From assembly GCA_025360645.1 (NCBI GenBank), contig JANYBT010000023.1:1-64000 (forward strand): a stretch of 64,000 bases of DNA. Direction: 5' to 3'. Position 1 is the first letter of the stretch, and every line of letters starts with the position of its first letter. Both the position numbers and the translations under genes were made by a program. This DNA comes from Acidobacteriaceae bacterium (GTDB lineage Bacteria; Acidobacteriota; Terriglobia; Terriglobales; Acidobacteriaceae). This document shows positions 42,690 to 53,981 of this stretch, piece after piece. Below the pieces are notes generated by a model. The model ran no database searches. It saw only the letters and a list, made by a program, of their open reading frames with translations, and was not told the origin of the DNA.

Positions 42690-43619
42690 TTAAATTGCGG
42701 CCTTCTGCAGAAGTTCGGCCGCTACCATGTCTTCCAGAGCGCAGCCTACGCTCTTAAATAGCGTGACTTCCTCGTTGTCGCGGCGAATAGCAGTCTTGCG
42801 AGTGAGCATTTGATGCAGATCGGCGAGGATCTGCGTGCGTGTGATCACCCCTTTGGCAAGCGGGATGATGAGATCGCCAGCCTCGGCGAGAGCGCTTTCG
42901 AAGGTATCCACGACGATGCGCGCGTTGCGCACCGTGGCGTCGTCCGATTCGCGAGTATGGGGTTGAAATCCACCTACCAAATTGACATGGGCCCCGCGGC
43001 GGAGCAGGTTGCCGTCGAAAAGCGGTGTGGGCGAAGTAGTGCAGGTGCAGATGACATCGGACTCTGCGGCACAGGTGCGCGGATACACCGGCTGGATGGA
43101 GAGGCCCACTTCGGCGGACATCTTCTGCGCAAAATCCCGGGTGCGAGCGGGGTCAATGCCGCAGACCAGGTACTGCTCGAATTTGCGAACCAGCGGCATC
43201 ACGCGAAAGTGGGCGCGGGCAAGCTGTCCAGTACCAAAGACGCCGAGGGAGCGGACCGCTGGCCGGGCGAGGTGTTGAGTGGCGACGGCGGAGGTGGCGG
43301 CGGTGCGGAGTGCGGTCAGCCAACGTGCGGGAGTTTGAAAAAGGGGCGCGCCCGTCCGAGGATCCAGGAGCGAGTAGGAGGCCTGGACGCGGTCCGCGCG
43401 CTCCGCATTGTTGTGCACGATGGCCATCTTGACCCCAAAGGAATCGCTGGAGGCTTCATAGCAGGGCATGATGAGCAGGATGCCATCACGGGTTTGGATT
43501 TGCGTGCGCACAGGAAGGGTCATCGACGGGAAGCGGCGGCGAAAAGCATCCTCGATGGCGGCAATGAGGGCGGCCGGATCCAGCAGGGCTTCAACATCGG
43601 CTTCGGTAAGGGTCCGCAA
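42690..43619 (-). CDS. Ornithine cyclodeaminase/mu-crystallin family dehydrogenase
   Basis: TTG 43619 lies six bases after a perfect AGGAGG, giving 309 residues; the frame extends to 43661 with no ribosome site. The product has the Rossmann motif SLGVFGTGQLARAHFRVMPL, IVHNNAERADRVQASYSLLD, and the C-terminal DLIIPLAKGVITRTQILADL region of the family. Members include ornithine cyclodeaminase, ketimine reductases, alanine dehydrogenase and SbnB-type enzymes that make unusual amino acids. The gene is divergent from the five-gene ligase cluster across 61 bases, so it may supply an amino acid substrate; that is inference. Confidence 0.8.
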   Translation of the reverse strand: MRTLTEADVEALLDPAALIAAIEDAFRRRFPSMTLPVRTQIQTRDGILLIMPCYEASSDSFGVKMAIVHNNAERADRVQASYSLLDPRTGAPLFQTPARWLTALRTAATSAVATQHLARPAVRSLGVFGTGQLARAHFRVMPLVRKFEQYLVCGIDPARTRDFAQKMSAEVGLSIQPVYPRTCAAESDVICTCTTSPTPLFDGNLLRRGAHVNLVGGFQPHTRESDDATVRNARIVVDTFESALAEAGDLIIPLAKGVITRTQILADLHQMLTRKTAIRRDNEEVTLFKSVGCALEDMVAAELLQKAAI

Positions 43620-43632
43620 CAGATTCCTCCTG

Positions 43633-43655
43633 GCAGGCGTGCATCCAATGCCTGC
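43633..43655. promoter_or_regulatory. Inverted repeat between the cyclodeaminase-like gene and the ligase cluster
   Basis: GCAGGCGT (43633-43640) and ATGCCTGC (43648-43655) match at seven of eight positions across a seven-base spacer. A TAAGAT -10-like box for the rightward operon lies at 43663-43668. The repeat is well placed to control both directions. Confidence 0.35.
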
Positions 43656-43680
43656 TTTCAATTAAGATACTCCGGCCACG

Positions 43681-44391
43681 ATGAACCGCGAATTTCACAG
43701 AGCGTACAGCCAACAATTGCAGCGGGACATGGACGCGCTTGTTTTCGGACATGCCGGCCACCCCCTTGTCGTGTTCCCCACCTCGATGGGCAAGTTTTTC
43801 GAGTACGAAGACCGGGGAATGATCCGAGCACTGGCGCCTAAGATCGAGGCCGGGGAACTGCAAGTGTTCTGTCCCGACGCGGTCGACACGGAGAGCTGGT
43901 ACAACAAGGGCGTTCACCCGCGCGTCCGGGTGATGCGGCACATCCAGTATGAAAACTACATCTTGCAAGAGTTTTTACCGTTCATCCGCTGGAAAAACCA
44001 GTCCCGTGGCCTAGCGGTAACGGGATGCAGCTTCGGCGGATACCAGGCATTGAATTTTGCGCTGAAGCACCCGGATGCGGTGACGCAATGCATCAGCATG
44101 GGTGGGGCGTTCGACATTCATCAGTTCCTGGATGGATATTACGACGACGACTGCTACTTCAATAATCCGCCGGATTTTCTGCAAAATATGAATGATGACT
44201 GGTTTTTGAACCGGTACCGGCAGATGAAGATCGTATTGGCCACCGGCGAATGGGACATGTGTCTCGACCAGAACATCAAGATGTCGCATTTGCTGGACGC
44301 CAAGGGCGTTCCGAATTGGCTGGATATCTGGGGAGACCATTCGCAACATGATTGGCCGTGGTGGCAAATGATGGCGGTGAAGTACTTCTAG
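43681..44391 (+). CDS. Alpha/beta hydrolase, esterase-like (COG4947-type)
   Basis: The 236-residue cytosolic protein has the nucleophile elbow GCSFGG with Ser117. An Asp is likely in ATGEWDMCLDQN and a His in WGDHSQHDWPWW. The early region VFGHAGHPLVVFPTSMGKFF resembles esterases of the PHB-depolymerase/enterochelin-esterase type. The family is, from general knowledge, found beside ATP-grasp and amino-acid ligase genes. It starts the cluster and the ATP-grasp gene follows 32 bases on. It could act as a thioesterase or transesterase on the product, or hydrolyse esters before ligation. Confidence 0.75.
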   Translation: MNREFHRAYSQQLQRDMDALVFGHAGHPLVVFPTSMGKFFEYEDRGMIRALAPKIEAGELQVFCPDAVDTESWYNKGVHPRVRVMRHIQYENYILQEFLPFIRWKNQSRGLAVTGCSFGGYQALNFALKHPDAVTQCISMGGAFDIHQFLDGYYDDDCYFNNPPDFLQNMNDDWFLNRYRQMKIVLATGEWDMCLDQNIKMSHLLDAKGVPNWLDIWGDHSQHDWPWWQMMAVKYF

Positions 44392-44423
44392 TGGTCGAGT
44401 TCAAATATGTTGAGGAGCTTCTC

Positions 44424-45359
44424 GTGAAGAAGATCGGGATTTTATTTGGGATGGAAAACACGTTTCCGCCAGCGGTGGTGGAGAAGATCAACTCCATGAA
44501 GGTGGAGGGAGTCACGGCGGAGTTCGTCAAGGTAGGCGGAGTGAAGATGGATGGTGGAAACCCCTACCGCGTCATTATTGACCGCATTTCCCAAGACGTT
44601 CCGTTCTACCGGGCATACTTGAAGAACGCCGTCGTGCACGGGACGATTGTGATTAACAATCCGTTCTGGTGGACTGCCGACGACAAGTTTTTTAATTACG
44701 CGATGGCAATTAAGCTGGGTGTGGCCATCCCGCCCACCGTGCTGCTTCCCCACCACTCGTATCCCCCGGATACCACGGAACGGTCGATGCGAAATCTTGA
44801 ATTTCCGCTGAACTGGGACGACATTTTTCAGTACGTGGGATTCCCGGCATTTTTGAAACCGTATGCGGGTGGGGGCTGGAAGCACGTTTATAAGGTGCAC
44901 TCGCCCGAGGAATTCTTTCACTATTACAACCAGACGGGCGACCTGTGCATGACCCTGCAGCACGGCGTGGAGTTCGACGACTACTTCCGCTGCTATGTGG
45001 TGGGACAAGAGAAAGTCCACGTGATGCGCTATGACCCGAAAGCTCCTCATGCCGAGCGGTATGTCAAGGGAAATCCGGCACCTTCAAATGACATGGGGAC
45101 GCGGGTAGTGAAAGACTCCCTAACCCTGTGCCGTGCGCTGGGATATGACCTGAACACCGTGGAGTTTGCCGTGGAGGATGGAGTCCCGTACGCCATCGAC
45201 TTCATGAATCCCGCGCCGGATGCAGAAGTCACTTCGGTAGGGCAGCAAAATTTCGAGTGGATCGTGAACGCCACGGCGGAATTAGCGGTGAAGAAGGCGC
45301 TCAGCGATGAGAATCCCGGAAAAGATTTGAGGTGGGCGCGGTTGCTAGCGGGAGGCTGA
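44424..45359 (+). CDS. ATP-grasp ligase
   Basis: GTG 44424 follows GAGGAGCTTCTC and gives 311 residues; the frame to 44352 overlaps the hydrolase and is rejected. ATP-grasp features include FPAFLKPYAGGGWKHVYKV, with the ATP-contact Lys, VEFDDYFRCYVVGQEKVHVM, and the metal site VEDGVPYAIDFMNPAPDAE (Asp-x-x-Asn). The N-terminal preATP region begins KKIGILFGMENTFPPAVV. Members join a carboxylate to an amine through an acyl phosphate. The cluster has a GCS2-type ligase 126 bases downstream, so a multi-step peptide synthesis is likely. Confidence 0.8.
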   Translation: MKKIGILFGMENTFPPAVVEKINSMKVEGVTAEFVKVGGVKMDGGNPYRVIIDRISQDVPFYRAYLKNAVVHGTIVINNPFWWTADDKFFNYAMAIKLGVAIPPTVLLPHHSYPPDTTERSMRNLEFPLNWDDIFQYVGFPAFLKPYAGGGWKHVYKVHSPEEFFHYYNQTGDLCMTLQHGVEFDDYFRCYVVGQEKVHVMRYDPKAPHAERYVKGNPAPSNDMGTRVVKDSLTLCRALGYDLNTVEFAVEDGVPYAIDFMNPAPDAEVTSVGQQNFEWIVNATAELAVKKALSDENPGKDLRWARLLAGG

Positions 45360-45485
45360 GGCCATCCCTGCAGACGGCCGGCCAACTGAGCCGCTTTGAG
45401 GAGAGGCATTGTTATACTAAGATGACCGGCGCCGAACTGCCGTCAACAAGAGTGACTCACTCGGGAAGGGTCTGGAATCCTGCCA

Positions 45486-46592
45486 ATGAAACCAAGCTTC
45501 ACACTGGGAATTGAAGAAGAGTACCAGACTGTCGACCCAGTCAGCCGAGACCTGCGTTCGCACATCCATGCGGAGATGATCGAGAAGGGCAAGCTGCGCC
45601 TGCAAGAGCGGGTGAAGTCCGAGATGCACCAGTCGGTGGTGGAAGTAGGGACCTCAGTGTGTGCGGACATCAAAGAGGCTAAAGCCGAGATCAAGTCGCT
45701 GCGCCGGAGCATGATCTTGCTGGCAAAGGAAAATGGGCTGCGGCTGGCGGCAGCGGCGACTCACCCCTTTGCGGACTGGCGGGCCCAGGAAATCACGGTC
45801 GACGAGCGCTATCAAAACATTGTGGAAGACATGCAATTGGTGGCCCGGGCCAACCTGATTTTCGGCTTGCATGTGCATGTTGGGATCGAAGACCGTGAAA
45901 CTGCGATCCAACTGATGAACCACGCGCGTTACTTTGTGCCGCATCTGCTGGCGTTGTCAGCTAATTCGCCGTTCTGGCTGGGCATGAATACGGGATTGAT
46001 GTCGTACCGCTGCAAGGTGTTTGACAAGTTTCCGCGCACCAATATCCCAGATTATTTCCCCAGCTGGGGCGAGTACGAGAACTTCATCAAGCTCCTGATC
46101 AAGACCGGCTGCATCGATAACGCGAAGAAGATTTGGTGGGACATCCGGCCGCATCCATTTTTTGACACGCTGGAGTTCCGGGTGTGCGACATCCCTATGC
46201 GAGCGGATGAATCGATTGCGCTGGCGGCTCTGATTCAGGCAACGGTGGCCAAACTGTACCGGCTGCACGAAGCCAACCAGGGCTTTCGGCTGTACCGGCG
46301 TGCATTGATCATGGAAAACAAGTGGCGTGCGGCGCGATACGGAATCAACGGGCAGATGGTTGATTTTGGCAAGCAAGTCGAACTGCCGGAGCGCGACCTG
46401 ATCCTGCAGTACCTCGAATTCGTGGATGACGTGGTGGATGAGCTGGGTTCGCGCGAGGAGATCAACTACATCTACAAGATGCTGGAACAAGGGACTGGCG
46501 CGGATCGCCAGTTGCGAGTGTTCAAGGAAACCGGCGACATCAAAGCAGTCGTGGATTACATCATCGAGGAGACCGCAGCGGGACTGGACTAG
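45486..46592 (+). CDS. Carboxylate-amine ligase, glutamate-cysteine-ligase (GCS2) family, YbdK-like
   Basis: The 368-residue product has the family signature LGIEEEYQTVD (residues 7-17), VVEVGTSVCADIKEAKAEIK, and FGLHVHVGIED with metal or substrate His. GCS2 enzymes activate the gamma-carboxylate of glutamate and join it to an amine; YbdK-type homologues have weak activity with cysteine and unknown real substrates. The ORF is the third gene of the cluster; a TATACT -10-like box at 45414-45419 lies in the 126-base gap before it. The M29 aminopeptidase starts 18 bases after its stop. Confidence 0.85.
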   Translation: MKPSFTLGIEEEYQTVDPVSRDLRSHIHAEMIEKGKLRLQERVKSEMHQSVVEVGTSVCADIKEAKAEIKSLRRSMILLAKENGLRLAAAATHPFADWRAQEITVDERYQNIVEDMQLVARANLIFGLHVHVGIEDRETAIQLMNHARYFVPHLLALSANSPFWLGMNTGLMSYRCKVFDKFPRTNIPDYFPSWGEYENFIKLLIKTGCIDNAKKIWWDIRPHPFFDTLEFRVCDIPMRADESIALAALIQATVAKLYRLHEANQGFRLYRRALIMENKWRAARYGINGQMVDFGKQVELPERDLILQYLEFVDDVVDELGSREEINYIYKMLEQGTGADRQLRVFKETGDIKAVVDYIIEETAAGLD

Positions 46593-46610
46593 CGCCCGGC
46601 ACACAGAGGA

Positions 46611-47657
46611 ATGAATACTACCTTGATCCAGACAACTACTCCATTGAACAACCTGCCGTTTGACCCTGAATTGAGCCCGGGAGCCCGCAATGCGGTGCAG
46701 GTGTGCTTGCACATCCAACCCACCGAGAAAGTCACGGTCATCACCGACAACGTGAGCCGGCAGATTGCAGCCTCGTTGGTCCACGAACTGGAAGTCGTGG
46801 GTGCGCCCTACCACGCGTGGGTGCTGGAGGATCTTGCGACGCGTCCACTGATCGACTTGCCCAAGCCGATTGTGGACGACATGGAAACCAGCCAGGTGAG
46901 CATTTTCGCGGTGCAGGCGCAGCGCAATGAATTGAAGTCGCGCATGCAAATGACCGACGTCGTGAACCGGCGGAAGATGCGGCATGCGCACATGGTCAAC
47001 ATCAATCGCCAGATTATGTTGGAAGGTATGCGAGCGGATTTTCACAAGGTGGATCGCCTTAGCATGAAAGTAGTGGCGATCGTTGAGCACGCCAGGCAAA
47101 TCCGCGCCACCAGCGCTGCCGGCACCGACATGATTGCGGACCTGAACCCGAACTACAAGTGGATCAAGACCAGCGGCATGATCACCCCGGAGAAATGGGG
47201 CAACCTGCCAGGCGGCGAGGTGTTCACTACCCCAGGAGAAGTCAACGGGGTGTTCGTTATTGATGGCGTAGTGGGCGATTACTTGTGCGAGAAGTTTGGC
47301 GATCTCAAACATACGCCCCTGACCATCCACATCAAGGGGAATCGGCTGACGGAAGTTCACTCCGTGAACAAGGAACTGGAAACGGATTTCTGGAACTACA
47401 CCCACACCGACGAAAACAGTGACCGGGTGGGCGAGTTTGCCATCGGGACCAACATCGAACTCAAGGATGTGATTGGGCAGATCCTGCAAGACGAGAAGTA
47501 TCCGGGAGTGCACATTGCGTTCGGCAACCCCTATGGATTCCACACTGGAGCGGACTGGTATTCGTCGACCCATATCGACGTAGTAGGGCGCCGAGTAGAT
47601 ATTTGGGTGGATGGCGAGCAGATCATGAAAGATGGAAAGTTCTTGATTGAGGCCTAG
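46611..47657 (+). CDS. M29-type (aminopeptidase T/AmpS) metallopeptidase
   Basis: The 348-residue product carries the M29 metal-ligand motifs: LPGGEVFTTPGEVNG (Glu), VGEFAIGTN (Glu), HIAFGNPYGFHTG (two His), YSSTHIDVVG (His and Asp), with a plausible Tyr in the same region. M29 aminopeptidases remove N-terminal residues and have one or two divalent metals. Placed between two ligases, it probably trims the cluster's product or recycles it. Confidence 0.85.
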   Translation: MNTTLIQTTTPLNNLPFDPELSPGARNAVQVCLHIQPTEKVTVITDNVSRQIAASLVHELEVVGAPYHAWVLEDLATRPLIDLPKPIVDDMETSQVSIFAVQAQRNELKSRMQMTDVVNRRKMRHAHMVNINRQIMLEGMRADFHKVDRLSMKVVAIVEHARQIRATSAAGTDMIADLNPNYKWIKTSGMITPEKWGNLPGGEVFTTPGEVNGVFVIDGVVGDYLCEKFGDLKHTPLTIHIKGNRLTEVHSVNKELETDFWNYTHTDENSDRVGEFAIGTNIELKDVIGQILQDEKYPGVHIAFGNPYGFHTGADWYSSTHIDVVGRRVDIWVDGEQIMKDGKFLIEA

Positions 47658-47749
47658 CACTTGTTGATGCAGAGGGATGATCAGCTAGCGGCAGACCTAT
47701 TGAACCACCGGTCGTGCATCCTTTCTCCCTTGCAGGATTTTGACCATCA

Positions 47750-48934
47750 ATGATTCCCTCACTTCGACAAAGTTTCAACGCGGGTTTTACGCCTGAGAAA
47801 TTCCAGGAGCTGGGGCGGCGAATGGCTTCGAATTGCGGCGTAGAAATCCCCTTCCGGTTGTGCGAGACGCCATGCTTTTTCCGCAAATCGCTCCTGGACG
47901 AATTGGCGGACGCCGGGCGGGAGTTGATCCTGCAGTTAGTGAACGACCCGCAGTATCTGGCACGTTCGAACGCCTCCATCCCAGGAGCGTTCAATGTACC
48001 GAACGAACCTTCGCACCCCATGTTTATCCAGGTGGACTTTGGTCTGGTGAAGAATGCCGCCGGTCAACTGAAGCCCAAGCTGGTGGAACTGCAGGCATTT
48101 CCCTCGCTGTACGGGTACCAGCCGGTACTGGCCCAAGCCTATATCGATACTTTCGAGTTGGATGCGGGACTGCGCTATTACTTGGGCGGGCACGACGCGG
48201 CATCGTATCGCGCGCTGCTGCAGAGGGCCGTTGTCGGCAACCATGCACCGGAGAACGTGGTACTCATGGAGATTCATCCCGAGCAGCAGAAGACGCTGCC
48301 GGATTTTTTGGCAACCGAGAATCTACTGGGAATCAAGACGGTTTGCATCACCAAAATTGCGAAGGAAGGCAATCGGCTGTTCTACGAACGCGACGGATTG
48401 CGGATTCCGATCGAGCGCATTTATAACCGCACGATTGTGGACGAACTGGAACGGGAAAACGTCACTCTGGGATTTGACTTCCGCGATGATTTGGATGTGG
48501 AGTGGGCGGGACATCCCAATTGGTATTTCCGCATCAGTAAGTTTTCCATTCCCTATTTGAAGCACGAATCGGCTCCGACGACCTGGTTTCTGGATCGCAT
48601 GGAGCGCGTTCCCGACGACCTGGAGAACTATGTGCTGAAGCCGCTGTATTCGTTCGCCGGGCTGGGAGTGAAGATCGGTCCCAGCAAGCAGGATATCGAC
48701 GCGGTGCCGCCGGACAAGCGCGGCGATTACATTCTGCAGGAGCGGCTGCACTTTGCGCCCGTGATTGAGACCCCATTCGGCCCGACCAAGGCGGAGTTGC
48801 GAATGATGTATATGTGGACAGAAGAACTACAGCCTGTGCTGACAATTGTGCGCATGGGACGGGGACTGATGATGGGCGTCGATCATAATAAGGATATGGA
48901 GTGGGTGGGTTCGTCGGCAGCGCTCTATGTGTAA
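47750..48934 (+). CDS. ATP-grasp protein, circularly-permuted-like (glutathionylspermidine-synthase-like)
   Basis: The 394-residue product has the ATP-contact segment LENYVLKPLYSFAGLGVKIG late in the sequence (about 291-310), and a metal-type motif KPKLVELQAFPSLYGYQ early (about 105-121). That order is the reverse of a standard ATP-grasp and resembles glutathionylspermidine-synthase-type permuted enzymes (E-x-N near the start). Gln replaces the usual Asn in E-x-N. The last part, YILQERLHFAPVIETPFGPT, also fits ATP-grasp. It is the last gene of the cluster, 92 bases after the aminopeptidase. The substrate is unknown. Confidence 0.7.
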   Translation: MIPSLRQSFNAGFTPEKFQELGRRMASNCGVEIPFRLCETPCFFRKSLLDELADAGRELILQLVNDPQYLARSNASIPGAFNVPNEPSHPMFIQVDFGLVKNAAGQLKPKLVELQAFPSLYGYQPVLAQAYIDTFELDAGLRYYLGGHDAASYRALLQRAVVGNHAPENVVLMEIHPEQQKTLPDFLATENLLGIKTVCITKIAKEGNRLFYERDGLRIPIERIYNRTIVDELERENVTLGFDFRDDLDVEWAGHPNWYFRISKFSIPYLKHESAPTTWFLDRMERVPDDLENYVLKPLYSFAGLGVKIGPSKQDIDAVPPDKRGDYILQERLHFAPVIETPFGPTKAELRMMYMWTEELQPVLTIVRMGRGLMMGVDHNKDMEWVGSSAALYV

Positions 48935-49075: not shown

Positions 49076-51847
49076 ATGGACATGCCTTATTGTAGTCATC
49101 GGTCGGGTCAGGCGAATCCCCCCTTAGCGCAACGATCTCTCTACGCAATCATCGCGCTGGTATTGGCGGCGCAGTTGGCTCTGCCCCTTTGGGCCCAGAA
49201 ACAGGCGCAGCCCTCGTCAACTTCGGCAACGAACACGCTCCCTATCGACCCCTCGGCCCCGCTGCCGCAAGACAGTGGAGTGGCGGGACTAAAGCAGATG
49301 CTGCGCCGGCTCAGCACAACAGCGCGGCTGATGCAAACGGTGGCGCATCCCGATGATGAAGACGGCGGCATGCTCACCCTAGAGTCCCGCGGCAAGGGTG
49401 CGAGCGTGGTACTGCTGACCCTGAACCGGGGCGAAGGCGGACAAAACAAAATTGGCAGCAACCTGTTCGATGTCCTTGGCGTATTGCGCACTCTGGAACT
49501 CACCGCCGCTGACCGGTACTACGGCGTGGAGCAGAGGTTCACGCGGGTGGCAGATTTTGGCTTCTCGAAGAATCCGGAGGAAACCTTTCAGAAATGGCAA
49601 GGCCATGACGTGGCGCTCGCGGACATGGTGCGGGTAATCAGGACATTCCGTCCGAATGTTTTGGTAGCGCGATTTTCAGGAACGGAGCGAGATGGCCATG
49701 GCCATCATCAGGCGTCGAGCCTGCTGACGCAAGAAGCCTTCCGGGCCGCGGCGGACCCCAATCGCTTCCCCGAGCAGATCGCGGAGGGACTGAAGCCATG
49801 GCAAGCCAGCAAATTGTACATCGGCAACGTTTGCGGCTTTATGGCCCCGACCTGTCCGGCGGAGAACTACACCCTCCGACTGAATACGGGGAAGACCGAC
49901 CCGGATCTCGGCGACTCCTACATTCAGTTCGCCATGAGGGGGCTGAAACACCAACTCTCGCAGGGAGCGGGGGGGTGGACAGTGGAACCAGGGGACCGAT
50001 TCACCTTTTACAAGCTGGTCGATTCGCAGCTGCCGGGTCCAAAACCAGACAAAGAACAGGATTTCTTCGACGGAATTGATACCAGCCTGCCGGGGCTGGC
50101 GTCGCAACTGGGAGCGGACGAAGCGAAGGCGTCGTACTTGCATTCAGGACTGCTCGACATGCAGCACCGTGTGGAGCAGGCCAAGCAGGCAACCGACCCG
50201 CGCCAGGCCGCAGTCCCGCTGCTGGAGGGGCTGCGCACCACTAACCAGTTAATCGAGAAGGTCGAGGCTTCTTCGATTGCGGGTCCGGCAAAGGCGACAT
50301 TGTTGGCGGAGCTGCGAACCAAGCAACAGCAGTTCCAGGAAGCGGCGAACCTGGCGTTGGAGTTGAAGTTTAGCTTGGTGCTGGATGCACCCCCGGCGGC
50401 GAACCCAGAAACTGGGTTCATGGCGGTTCCGGGACAGGCGTTCCCCGTGGTGGCGAAGTTGGAAATGCCGACCGCTGGCGAAGTGCAAGTTCACGAGTTG
50501 AAAGTGAGATTCACAGCGGCGGCAAACGCGGCAGACGACACCTGCGGCGAATTGGCTGCAGAATGGCCGCGCCAAGCGAGCAACCTCCGCGAGATGACGA
50601 AGCTGCTCCGCATAACGCCTTGCGAAAACGCACAGCCCACGCGTCCGTATTGGCACCGGGCGAATCCGGAGACGGATAGCGTCAACACCGTCGACGATAC
50701 GCGATGGGCGACTCTTCCCTTCCCCCCGGCGCCGTTGCAAGCCGTGACCGAGTATGCGGTCGGAGATTTGCACGGTTCGATCACAACCGTGGGTATGGTG
50801 CGGTATAAGAACTCGGTGGCAGTGGCGGAACGGGCGTTGGCGATTGCCCCGGCGTTCTCCGTGTCGCTGGAGCCAGCGAGCCAGGTCATTCCGGTGAGCC
50901 ATCAGGGCGGGACGGACATCCGAGTACTGGTGCGCAGCAACGTCAAAACCTCAGCCGGTACCGTACGGTTGACGCTGCCTGCGGGATGGAGAAGCGAACC
51001 CGCAGAACAGCGCGTCAGCTTGCAGCAGCCAAACCAATCACAGTGGGCAAATTTCCGGGTCTTCCCTGGAAAGCTGCAGGAGGGGCGTTTCGAAGTACGA
51101 GCTGCTTTGGAGTCGGAGGGCAAGACGTACGGCGATGGATATAGCATCGTCACCCGCGAAGATCTGAATATGTACTACTACTATCAGCCCGCGGTGCAGC
51201 GTGTCAGCGTGGTGGATGTGAACGTTCCCGCGGGATTGAAGATTGGGTACATCATGGGCGCGGGGGATGATATTCCCGCGGTGCTGCAACAATTGGGCTT
51301 GGATGTAAAGGTCGTGGATGCAACGCAGGACCTGAGCGGATTTTCGACCGTGGTGCTGGGAATCCGCGCATACGACACCCAGAAAGATGTGGTGACCAAC
51401 AACAAGAAACTACTGGATTTCGTTGCGGCGGGCGGGACACTGCTCGTCCAATACAACGCTAGCACGGGAGATTTCAACAACGGAAAGCTTACCCCGTATC
51501 CGGCGCAGTTAAGCCGGGCACGCGTTTCTGTTGAAGAGTCGCCGGTGGAACTACTGGCTCCGGCCAGTCCCGTATTTCACTTCCCCAACCAGATTGGGCC
51601 GCACGACTTCGACGGCTGGGTGCAGGAGCGCGGACTGTACTTCATGGACCAATGGGACAGCAAGTTTGAAGCGCTGCTGGCTTGCAACGACCCGGGAGAG
51701 AAGCCGCAGAAAGGCGGGTTGCTGCTGGCGCACTACGGCAAAGGAACTTATATCTATACTGGGTATTCTTTCTTCCGTCAGTTGCCGGCCGGCGTGCCGG
51801 GGGCGGTCCGGCTCTATGTAAATCTGTTGAGCGCAGGGCGAGAGTAG
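49076..51847 (+). CDS. Exported PIG-L family deacetylase with long C-terminal extension
   Basis: The 923-residue protein has a signal peptide (SLYAIIALVLAAQLALPLWA) and a PIG-L/LmbE domain (about 80-290) with the zinc motif VAHPDDEDGGMLTL and a second site GHGHHQASSLLT. The family deacetylates GlcNAc-type sugars, including in mycothiol and GPI-type pathways. The rest (about 430-923) is not in ordinary deacetylases: a beta-rich region (about 600-700, for example GTVRLTLPAGWRSEP) and a late segment GGTLLVQYNASTG followed by HFPNQIGPHDFDGW that resembles a glutamine-amidotransferase-like or ThuA-like domain without a clear catalytic Cys. It may act on extracellular polysaccharide. A permease follows 85 bases on. 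Confidence 0.75.
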   Translation: MDMPYCSHRSGQANPPLAQRSLYAIIALVLAAQLALPLWAQKQAQPSSTSATNTLPIDPSAPLPQDSGVAGLKQMLRRLSTTARLMQTVAHPDDEDGGMLTLESRGKGASVVLLTLNRGEGGQNKIGSNLFDVLGVLRTLELTAADRYYGVEQRFTRVADFGFSKNPEETFQKWQGHDVALADMVRVIRTFRPNVLVARFSGTERDGHGHHQASSLLTQEAFRAAADPNRFPEQIAEGLKPWQASKLYIGNVCGFMAPTCPAENYTLRLNTGKTDPDLGDSYIQFAMRGLKHQLSQGAGGWTVEPGDRFTFYKLVDSQLPGPKPDKEQDFFDGIDTSLPGLASQLGADEAKASYLHSGLLDMQHRVEQAKQATDPRQAAVPLLEGLRTTNQLIEKVEASSIAGPAKATLLAELRTKQQQFQEAANLALELKFSLVLDAPPAANPETGFMAVPGQAFPVVAKLEMPTAGEVQVHELKVRFTAAANAADDTCGELAAEWPRQASNLREMTKLLRITPCENAQPTRPYWHRANPETDSVNTVDDTRWATLPFPPAPLQAVTEYAVGDLHGSITTVGMVRYKNSVAVAERALAIAPAFSVSLEPASQVIPVSHQGGTDIRVLVRSNVKTSAGTVRLTLPAGWRSEPAEQRVSLQQPNQSQWANFRVFPGKLQEGRFEVRAALESEGKTYGDGYSIVTREDLNMYYYYQPAVQRVSVVDVNVPAGLKIGYIMGAGDDIPAVLQQLGLDVKVVDATQDLSGFSTVVLGIRAYDTQKDVVTNNKKLLDFVAAGGTLLVQYNASTGDFNNGKLTPYPAQLSRARVSVEESPVELLAPASPVFHFPNQIGPHDFDGWVQERGLYFMDQWDSKFEALLACNDPGEKPQKGGLLLAHYGKGTYIYTGYSFFRQLPAGVPGAVRLYVNLLSAGRE

Positions 51848-51932
51848 CTGGCCAATCTTCTCTATGCTCTTCAGTCTCGACACATCAGAATTGGTGTCAC
51901 CATGATGCGAGGCGCGCGAGCGTGAGAAGCCT

Positions 51933-53390
51933 TTGAACATCAACGAGGACTTCAATTCGCCTCCCTTGATCCGTGGTATGGGATTGGGAAGCGCCACGGC
52001 CCTGAACATGATCGACATGATCGGGGTCGGCCCGTTTATCACGCTACCTCTGATTGTGAGCGCGATGGGCGGTCCCCAAGCGATGCTGGGATGGGTGGTG
52101 GGCGCCTTGTTGGCGGTGTGCGACGGTCTGGTGTGGGCGGAGTTGGGTGCGGCGATGCCAGGGTCGGGCGGGTCGTACCGCTACTTGAAAGAAATTTATG
52201 GGCCGCGGGGATTGGGGCGGCTGGTGTCGTTCCTGTTCATCTGGCAGTTGTCTTTCAGCGCGCCCCTTTCCATTGCGTCCGGGAGCCTGGGTCTGGCGCA
52301 GTATGCGGCTTACTACTGGCCCGGATTGGAACATCGCTACGCCGTGCTGAATGGGATCGCAGAGATTCCACTCTTGGGGCATTTGGAGGTCAGCGCATTG
52401 GTCATGCCGGGGACGTTCGTCGCCATCGGCACTTGCGCCCTGGTAGTCCTTCTGCTGTATCGGCGGATTACCGTGATCGGTCAACTGTCCAAACTCCTGT
52501 GGGTGGGTGTGATGGGCACGATGGGATGGATCATCTTTGCCGGAGTCACGCACTTCCATGCCCAGCAAGCCTTTGATTTTCCTCCCGGAGCATTTACGCT
52601 TTCGTCCAGTTTCTTCCAGGGAATGGGCGCGGCGCTGCTGATCTCGGCATATGACTACTGGGGCTACTACAACGTCTGTTTTTTGGGAGATGAGGTAAAA
52701 GAGCCGGGCAAGAATATTCCACGGGCGATGCTGCTGTCCATCGCGATTGTGGCGTGCCTATACCTGGTGATGAACATCAGCATTTTGGGCGTAGTGCCGT
52801 GGCGCGAAGTGGCGGAGGCGGGACACGCAAACAGCAAGTTGTATGTAGTGTCGGTGTTCATGGAGCGGGCCTATGGGCCCTGGGCGGCGCGACTGGTCAC
52901 GGGAATGGTCATGTGGACGGCGTTTGCGTCAGTATTTTCGCTGATGCTGGGTTATTCCCGTGTTCCGTACGCAGCTGCGCTGGATGGCAACTATTTTCGG
53001 GCGTTCGCGCGAGTGCATCCCAAGCACCGATTTCCTTATGTATCGTTGCTGGCACTCGGCGGGGTCGCCGCCTTGTTTTGTTTTCTGCGCTTGGCGGACG
53101 TGATTGCGGCGCTGGTGGTGATCCGGATTCTTCTGCAGTTTCTGGTGCAGGCGGTGGGCGTGATCGTGTTGCGAGTGAAGCGTCCGGATTTGCCGCGTCC
53201 GTTTCGCATGTGGCTCTATCCGGTGCCCGCGCTGATGGCAACTGCGGGCTTTGTATTCATTCTGTTTGGGCGAAAGAATTTCGGAAAAGAGTTGCGGCTG
53301 GCGGTGTTTATCTTGATACTGGGTTTGATCGTTTATCTAGTGCGAGCATGGCGTGAACAGGAATGGCCGTTCGTCAGAACGGCCGCCTGA
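51933..53390 (+). CDS. APC-family amino acid/amine permease
   Basis: TTG 51933 follows GAGAAGCC. The 485-residue product has about 12 membrane segments; the first is typical of APC permeases (ATALNMIDMIGVGPFITLPL), and GAAMPGSGGSYRYLKEIYGP is the conserved substrate-site loop. It is probably an amino acid or polyamine importer. It is downstream of the deacetylase gene and may share its transcript. Confidence 0.85.
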   Translation: MNINEDFNSPPLIRGMGLGSATALNMIDMIGVGPFITLPLIVSAMGGPQAMLGWVVGALLAVCDGLVWAELGAAMPGSGGSYRYLKEIYGPRGLGRLVSFLFIWQLSFSAPLSIASGSLGLAQYAAYYWPGLEHRYAVLNGIAEIPLLGHLEVSALVMPGTFVAIGTCALVVLLLYRRITVIGQLSKLLWVGVMGTMGWIIFAGVTHFHAQQAFDFPPGAFTLSSSFFQGMGAALLISAYDYWGYYNVCFLGDEVKEPGKNIPRAMLLSIAIVACLYLVMNISILGVVPWREVAEAGHANSKLYVVSVFMERAYGPWAARLVTGMVMWTAFASVFSLMLGYSRVPYAAALDGNYFRAFARVHPKHRFPYVSLLALGGVAALFCFLRLADVIAALVVIRILLQFLVQAVGVIVLRVKRPDLPRPFRMWLYPVPALMATAGFVFILFGRKNFGKELRLAVFILILGLIVYLVRAWREQEWPFVRTAA

Positions 53391-53420
53391 GTTTCTAAAT
53401 TTGCAGCGGAGGAACTGTTT

Positions 53421-53981
53421 ATGAAGAAAGTGATGATGTGCCTGCTTCTATTGGCTGGAAGCGGCGTGGCGCTTGGGCAGACGGCAAAGGCCGCCGAACA
53501 CCGGACCGTGACACAGGTACTGGAGAACAGTCTGAAGAGCATGGAAGGAGAGTTTGTCCCGGCCGCGGAAGCCATGCCGGAAGACAAGTTCAACTTTGTG
53601 CCCACCAGCGGCGAGTTTAAGGGTGTTCGTACTTTCGCTCAACAAGTGAAGCATGTAGCGACGGTCAACTATATGCTGGGTTCCGCCATCCTGGAAGAGA
53701 AGCCGCCCTTGGATATCAAAGGAGAAAACGGACCGGACGAAATCAAGACGAAGGCTGAGGTCGTGAAGTATCTAAAAGATTCCTTTATTTACATTCACAA
53801 GGCAGTGGCGACCGTGAATGAGAAGAATGCAGTCGAACCGCAGGTCAAGAGCCCGTTCGGCGAGGGCATGATGACGCGGATGGGAGTAGCAGTCATTTCC
53901 GTGAGCCACGGGTTTGACCACTATGGGCAGATGGTGGAGTATCTGCGCATGAACGGGATTGTACCCCCCGCCAGCCGCTAG
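53421..53981 (+). CDS. Exported DinB-family protein
   Basis: ATG 53421 follows GCGGAGGAACTG. The 186-residue product has a signal peptide ending GVALGQTA. The rest is a DinB four-helix bundle with metal His in QQVKHVATVNYML and SVSHGFDHYGQMVEYL. DinB proteins are metal-dependent, sometimes thiol transferases; most are cytosolic, so the signal peptide is notable. It starts 30 bases after the permease gene and ends at a terminator. Confidence 0.75.
   Translation: MKKVMMCLLLLAGSGVALGQTAKAAEHRTVTQVLENSLKSMEGEFVPAAEAMPEDKFNFVPTSGEFKGVRTFAQQVKHVATVNYMLGSAILEEKPPLDIKGENGPDEIKTKAEVVKYLKDSFIYIHKAVATVNEKNAVEPQVKSPFGEGMMTRMGVAVISVSHGFDHYGQMVEYLRMNGIVPPASR

Follow-up and report, generated by a model that had tools for sequence, protein, structure and literature searches.

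The window (the whole stretch of DNA analysed here, 64,000 nucleotides) carries five open reading frames on the forward strand between positions 43681 and 48934, all of them intact and referred to below as g1 to g5. Coordinates are collected in the table. The gaps between the genes measure, in order, 32, 126, 18 and 92 bases; the single strand and the spacing of 18 to 126 bases given in an earlier reading of the DNA (the sequence-only reading) are correct. Judged by the length of these gaps alone, there is no precursor gene among the five. We start g2 at a GTG codon; the ORF listing starts it upstream, at TTG 44352, within g1. The five enzyme types that had been proposed (esterase, ATP-grasp, GCS2 ligase, M29 aminopeptidase and permuted ATP-grasp) are borne out by Pfam and NCBIfam for g1, g3 and g4 and by predicted folds for g2 and g5.

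Table. Positions of the five genes, of their neighbours in the window and of features in other loci (L numbers)
Feature	Sequence	Position	Strand	Description
g1	Window	43681..44391	+	alpha/beta-hydrolase, Pfam Esterase, 236 aa
g2	Window	44424..45359	+	ATP-grasp ligase, RimK/LysX/D-Ala-ligase group by predicted fold, 311 aa from GTG
g3	Window	45486..46592	+	GCS2-type carboxylate-amine ligase, YbdK-like, 368 aa
g4	Window	46611..47657	+	M29-type metallohydrolase (putative), 348 aa
g5	Window	47750..48934	+	permuted ATP-grasp, predicted glutathione/glutathionylspermidine-synthetase fold, 394 aa
Upstream neighbour	Window	42690..43661		ornithine cyclodeaminase/mu-crystallin-family gene, divergent from g1
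Downstream block	Window	49076..53981		923-aa PIG-L protein, amino-acid permease, DinB gene
Amino-acid permease	Window	51933..53390		part of the downstream block, behind the PIG-L gene
GATase-like protein	L027	5918..6904		replaces g4
GATase-like protein	L149	5419..6396		replaces g4
GATase-like protein	L181	13095..14021		replaces g4
g1 relative with ATP-grasp_4 protein	L138	5788..7753		plasmid gene pair
g1 relative with ATP-grasp_4 protein	L141	5828..7756		plasmid gene pair

Three of the products can be placed in sequence families. g1 scores 38.7 bits against Esterase (PF00756; cut-off 22), and its predicted triad, Ser117-Asp192-His223, is invariant in 20 of 20 relatives. g3 exceeds the cut-offs of both GCS2 (PF04107; 231.5 bits, cut-off 21) and the NCBIfam carboxylate-amine ligase family NF010039 (551.4 bits, cut-off 371), and its alignment with YbdK spans its length. 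g4 is a member of Peptidase_M29 (PF02073; 46.4 bits, cut-off 27), a family that is also matched by 23 of 23 of its relatives. Five g4 residues (E203, E275, H301, H321 and D323) are invariant in 23 of 23 sequences. The first three align with the site motifs of AmpS, and H321 and D323, assigned via a THID motif, complete the AmpS/AmpT metal-ligand set (E, E, H, H, D). NicX-type 2,5-dihydroxypyridine dioxygenase, another distant relative, was considered for g4 and rejected: in the aligned columns NicX is without both glutamates and the first histidine, peptidase ligands that g4 retains, which makes a hydrolase likelier than an oxygenase. On these residues g4 looks like a hydrolase. The intact catalytic residues of g1 and g4 and the match of g3 to YbdK predict competent enzymes and say nothing on their substrates.

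Neither g2 nor g5 scores high enough for any Pfam family, and both were assigned from AlphaFold2 models (pLDDT 88.6 and 92.6, respectively). The g2 model matches RimK, LysX/ArgX and D-Ala ligases, with RimK as the nearest fold (Z 22.2, rmsd 2.8, 264 aligned), and K145, E247, D259 and N262 are invariant in relatives. Going by its model, g2 is an ATP-grasp protein of the RimK/LysX/D-Ala-ligase group. The g5 model matches eukaryotic-type glutathione synthetases, glutathionylspermidine synthetase and Escherichia coli YgiC and YjfC (YgiC: Z 26.4, rmsd 3.4, 344 of 383 residues aligned; YjfC: Z 26.2); for other ATP-grasps Z drops to about 8. In g5 an acidic motif, PKLVELQ (E113, Q115), lies upstream of the lysine motif YVLKPLYSFAGLGV (K297), which is the order of elements of permuted ATP-grasps. 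Structural prediction of the two proteins, which the sequence-only reading had suggested as a check, gives ATP-grasp folds for both, permuted in g5.

The residues D96, E113, Q115, K264 and K297 of g5 are invariant in relatives. In an alignment that is weak, four of them (D96, E113, K264 and K297) correspond to the conserved D, E and K residues of GSP_synth proteins; g5 has Gln115 where these have Asn and no longer carries the SREG motif. YgiC and YjfC, the closest fold, share with g5 the motif YVxKPxxS..G..V and the metal/ATP residues (D, E and two K) but differ in that identity is 14%, the Asn of their ExN motif is Gln115 in g5 and SREG is gone. Plain membership of GSP_synth (PF03738) or CP_ATPgrasp_2 (PF14403) was rejected because g5 misses both cut-offs. 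GSP_synth has no match in the window's genome and matches one of 44 g5 relatives (E 0.034), the g5-GSP_synth profile match being weak (probability 4.6%); CP_ATPgrasp_2 likewise matches one of the 44 (E 0.0078). No sequence match was found between g5 and glutathione synthetases. As it misses the profile cut-offs, g5 lies outside the known sequence families; it is, according to its model, a protein of the glutathione/glutathionylspermidine-synthetase fold.

A scan of GTDB contigs with a g5 profile gave at least 571 relatives, of which the best 80 were taken, all Acidobacteriota by title. All five genes are present in 45 of these best 80 g5-related loci, and many of the others end at a contig edge. 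Among the best 80 of the at least 571 relatives, the order g1-g2-g3-g4-g5 and the strand are identical in 45 of 45 five-gene loci. The distance matrices of the g1 to g5 proteins also correlate (r = 0.84-0.93; mirror-tree, 33 loci). Presence and absence were scored in 197 Acidobacteriota genomes that are 90% complete or more, using one profile search per gene. This gave 62 genomes for g1, 63 for g2 (55 strong), 59 for g3 (E < 1e-100), 16 for g4 (strong) and 24 for g5, and the presence and absence of the five co-vary over the sample. Of the 22 genomes sampled from the window's family, exactly the same 11 have g3, g4 and g5. The genes need not be linked, and in several of the 11 they are apart: one genome has g5 0.9 Mb away from the others and another has it on a separate contig. 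Joint presence of g3 to g5 even where unlinked argues for joint function.

The five-gene cluster is not due to chance. Conservation across Acidobacteriota, on which the sequence-only reading had chiefly staked its case, is seen in both the common order and the shared presence and absence. The five genes hold as a set but not as the unit: they are one variant, g1 and g2 also occur alone, and g4 and g5 are replaceable elsewhere.

Two individual genomes deserve mention. Edaphobacter lichenicola M8UP22 (locus L102, apparently genome G203) has all five genes in dispersed places and is useful for genetics. In a genome of another family (locus L183, genome G191), g4 and g5 score like those of the window's family and lie beside a g3 fragment; this is either a recent transfer or a binning mix.

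g1 and g2 are found jointly in 60 of the 197 genomes. Four genomes of the window's family keep only these two genes, so the pair can stand alone, and it may be a separate module. In plasmid sequences there is no match for g2 or g5, and relatives of g3 and g1 have about 25-43% identity. Six plasmid regions with g1 or g3 relatives were inspected and hold no other partners, except that in Peptoclostridium and Pararhizobium g1 is accompanied by an ATP-grasp of another type. On these plasmids (L138 and L141 in the table) a g1 relative adjoins an ATP-grasp_4 protein, a two-gene version of g1-g2 with another ATP-grasp. Other families also have a divergent subfamily of g2, with scores of 150-172 bits and larger open frames (L163-L168); in L166 and L168 a g1 relative adjoins it.

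In other families, a 450-residue protein adjoins g2, often between g2 and g3. Its representative scores 41.5 bits against CP_ATPgrasp_2 (cut-off 32), and this alternative ligase is strong in 29 of the 197 genomes. g2 and g3 are both strong in 44 genomes, of which 19 have only g5, 22 only the alternative, two have both and one has neither (Fisher p 2.8e-9, a naive value that ignores shared ancestry). In the genome with neither, the cluster ends at the contig end just past g4. Since nearly every genome with g2 and g3 has one of the two ligases, a permuted-ATP-grasp step seems to be required, and either family seems to serve. Most genomes that carry the alternative ligase yielded no g4 and no GATase-like gene of the kind described below.

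The second exchange concerns g4, whose place between g3 and g5 is held in L027 and L149 by an unrelated 335-residue protein. This same slot contains g4 in L150 and L207 and the 335-residue (GATase-like) protein in L027, L149 and L181. The two proteins have no sequence relation. In the 12 sequences of the GATase-like family, the motifs GTGGPG, CHSFG and NHHPE are invariant or nearly so. This is the pattern of class-I glutamine amidotransferases (GATases), which use a Cys-His-Glu triad. Searches against Pfam, NCBIfam and PDB gave no significant match for it; the best PDB row, GMP synthase in the HPE region, is weak (E 0.041). The gene is present in 12 of the 197 genomes, and g2 is present in all 12. 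The 24 genomes with g5 divide into 14 with g4, nine with the GATase-like gene, none with both and one with neither (p 7.6e-6, again naive as to shared ancestry). The exchange occurs within one family (f32) and also in two others (f16 and f63), and is therefore more than a split of two deep lineages. For example, in one genus of f32, one genome has g4, and in another the GATase-like gene lies 2.5 kb past g1.

The use of putrescine (PuuA/PuuD) offers a precedent for masking with glutamate and later unmasking, and butirosin is another such case. A catabolic route of this type, in which g3 would mask an amine with glutamate and the hydrolase would release it after processing, would account for a GCS2-type ligase together with a hydrolase slot open to a class-I-GATase-like protein, whose motifs (GGPG, CHSFG and NHHPE) are like those of PuuD and other class-I GATase-fold gamma-glutamyl hydrolases. 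However, the GATase-like family has no significant match with the PuuD profile, two more ATP-dependent ligases would be costly for catabolism, and the set is without a conserved oxidase, dehydrogenase or transaminase. We consider catabolism unlikely.

The new observation here is that the five genes represent one form of a broader system in which two slots are interchangeable. Probably, this is a pathway that extends across many Acidobacteriota families and in which the permuted-ATP-grasp and amide-hydrolase steps are each replaced, according to lineage, by a distant or unrelated family, while the GCS2 enzyme, the RimK-like ligase and the esterase remain constant. We give a probability of about 0.5 to a dedicated pathway for a small peptide or amide built without ribosome, carrier protein or NRPS. 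By analogy with known enzymes, this would most likely lead to a small peptide or amide of gamma-glutamyl origin.

GCS2 enzymes couple an amine with glutamate or a similar acid; g3 would join glutamate to an amine or amino acid to give a gamma-glutamyl amide. Enzymes with the g5 fold (glutathione synthetase, GspS and YgiC) take a small peptide, activate its carboxylate and attach an amino acid or a polyamine. Modelled on glutathione synthetase and YgiC, g5 (or, elsewhere, the CP_ATPgrasp_2 ligase) would activate the free carboxylate of the g3 product and add an amine or amino acid. RimK, LysX and D-Ala ligases add amino acids, and g2 would add a further amino-acid bond in their manner. Both M29 and class-I GATase-fold enzymes can cleave amide bonds; g4 (or, elsewhere, the GATase-like protein) would hydrolyse an amide, in the simplest case to take off the gamma-glutamyl group or one residue from the N-terminus. 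g1 may cleave or transfer an ester or acyl group. Every reaction, all substrates and the order of the steps are what we infer, and the fold likeness of the g2 and g5 models gives no substrate. The exchange of one ligase and one hydrolase for look-alikes makes the logic of the pathway testable: in each of the two slots the replacement enzymes should complement each other, which would fix the slot reactions before the product is known.

Synthesis of glutathione and of glutathionylspermidine and trypanothione is alike in that a permuted ATP-grasp with the g5 fold acts after gamma-glutamyl ligation, and GspSA also has a partner amidase. The set described here differs in having an esterase, a second ATP-grasp (RimK-like) and a hydrolase of the M29 or GATase-like type, and g3 and g5 are without gshA or GSP_synth membership. 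The shared logic, in which a GCS-type ligase acts first and a ligase with the glutathione-synthetase fold second, would suit a low-molecular-weight thiol, a glutathione analogue of the form gamma-Glu-Cys-X. This is very unlikely: g3-g5 are absent from half of the close relatives, g3 is far under the gshA_cyano cut-off (71.9 bits against 249), and the window's genome encodes the bacillithiol synthase BshC (460 bits, cut-off 265.8), which argues against a substitute thiol. g3 and g5 fall outside glutathione biosynthesis as defined by the gshA equivalog and glutathione synthetase, and the standard glutathione route, which the sequence-only reading had named as a possible known explanation, can be set aside on the g3 score and the bacillithiol synthase.

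RimK modifies ribosomal protein S6, and it is the nearest fold to g2. g2 and the other ligases might then attach amino acids to a protein, from which g4 or the GATase-like protein would remove them. By sequence, g2 scores 19.9 bits against the RimK family TIGR00768 (cut-off 143.4) and does not itself match the R2K profiles; weak matches occur in 11 of 31 g2 relatives (best E 0.0023, R2K_2), and the DxxN of the last strand of g2 recalls the shifted motif of R2K.3. The R2K clade has been proposed to tag proteins (PMC4431377). Against peptide tagging, g2 misses the R2K cut-off and its profile-profile match is weak (probability 31%), the clusters contain no conserved target gene, and the folds of g3 and g5 are those of small-substrate enzymes. 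A LysW-like carrier protein was not seen either. Tagging therefore appears improbable, and a small peptide or amide is the preferred product.

In databases YgiC is annotated as a peptide-spermidine ligase, and it has been termed a peptidylpolyamine synthetase (PMC12568646). Cp1B, which has the fold of YgiC and g5, makes a pseudodipeptide in E-64 biosynthesis (PMC12568646). Both the E-64 pathway (Cp1B and Cp1D) and that of dapdiamide form amide bonds stepwise without a carrier. A natural product with inhibitory action, either an antibiotic or a protease inhibitor, made in this style and with g1 or g4 serving in maturation or immunity, would agree with the patchy distribution of the set as well as with the fold of Cp1B. 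The E-64 pathway itself works with an oxygenase and an adenylating synthetase and has no GCS2, M29 or RimK-like ATP-grasp. Against such an inhibitor, an exporter, regulator or tailoring oxygenase was not seen recurring with the set, and the genes are dispersed in several genomes, unlike typical clusters. The PADLOC defence families gave one weak row only (g4, E 0.0027 over 41 residues) and none that is convincing. An inhibitor is rather unlikely, and a defence system was rejected because this sole row is weak.

g3 resembles the YbdK-type ligases in its GCS2 and NF010039 scores; to our knowledge, no YbdK-type gene has been described with this partner set. The open-access literature that we searched contains no account of the gene set, and we use 'undescribed' within that scope; mentions of COG4947, a group named in the sequence-only reading, concern other topics there. 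An earlier notice of such a gene neighbourhood would most likely be in Iyer et al. 2009. The proposed pathway would be phylum-wide but optional in Acidobacteriota, which are abundant in soil and of whose metabolites few are known. Being in no Pfam family, g2 and g5 would extend the range of carrier-free peptide-bond enzymes for biocatalysis.

The downstream PIG-L/permease/DinB block recurs in many loci of the window's family. PIG-L relatives are found in 22 of 22 family genomes, with or without g3-g5, and PIG-L was therefore rejected as a pathway member. The divergent ornithine cyclodeaminase-family gene upstream of g1 is also present in six other loci (L020, L024, L057, L058, L069 and L071); it could be the source of an unusual amino acid or a mere neighbour.
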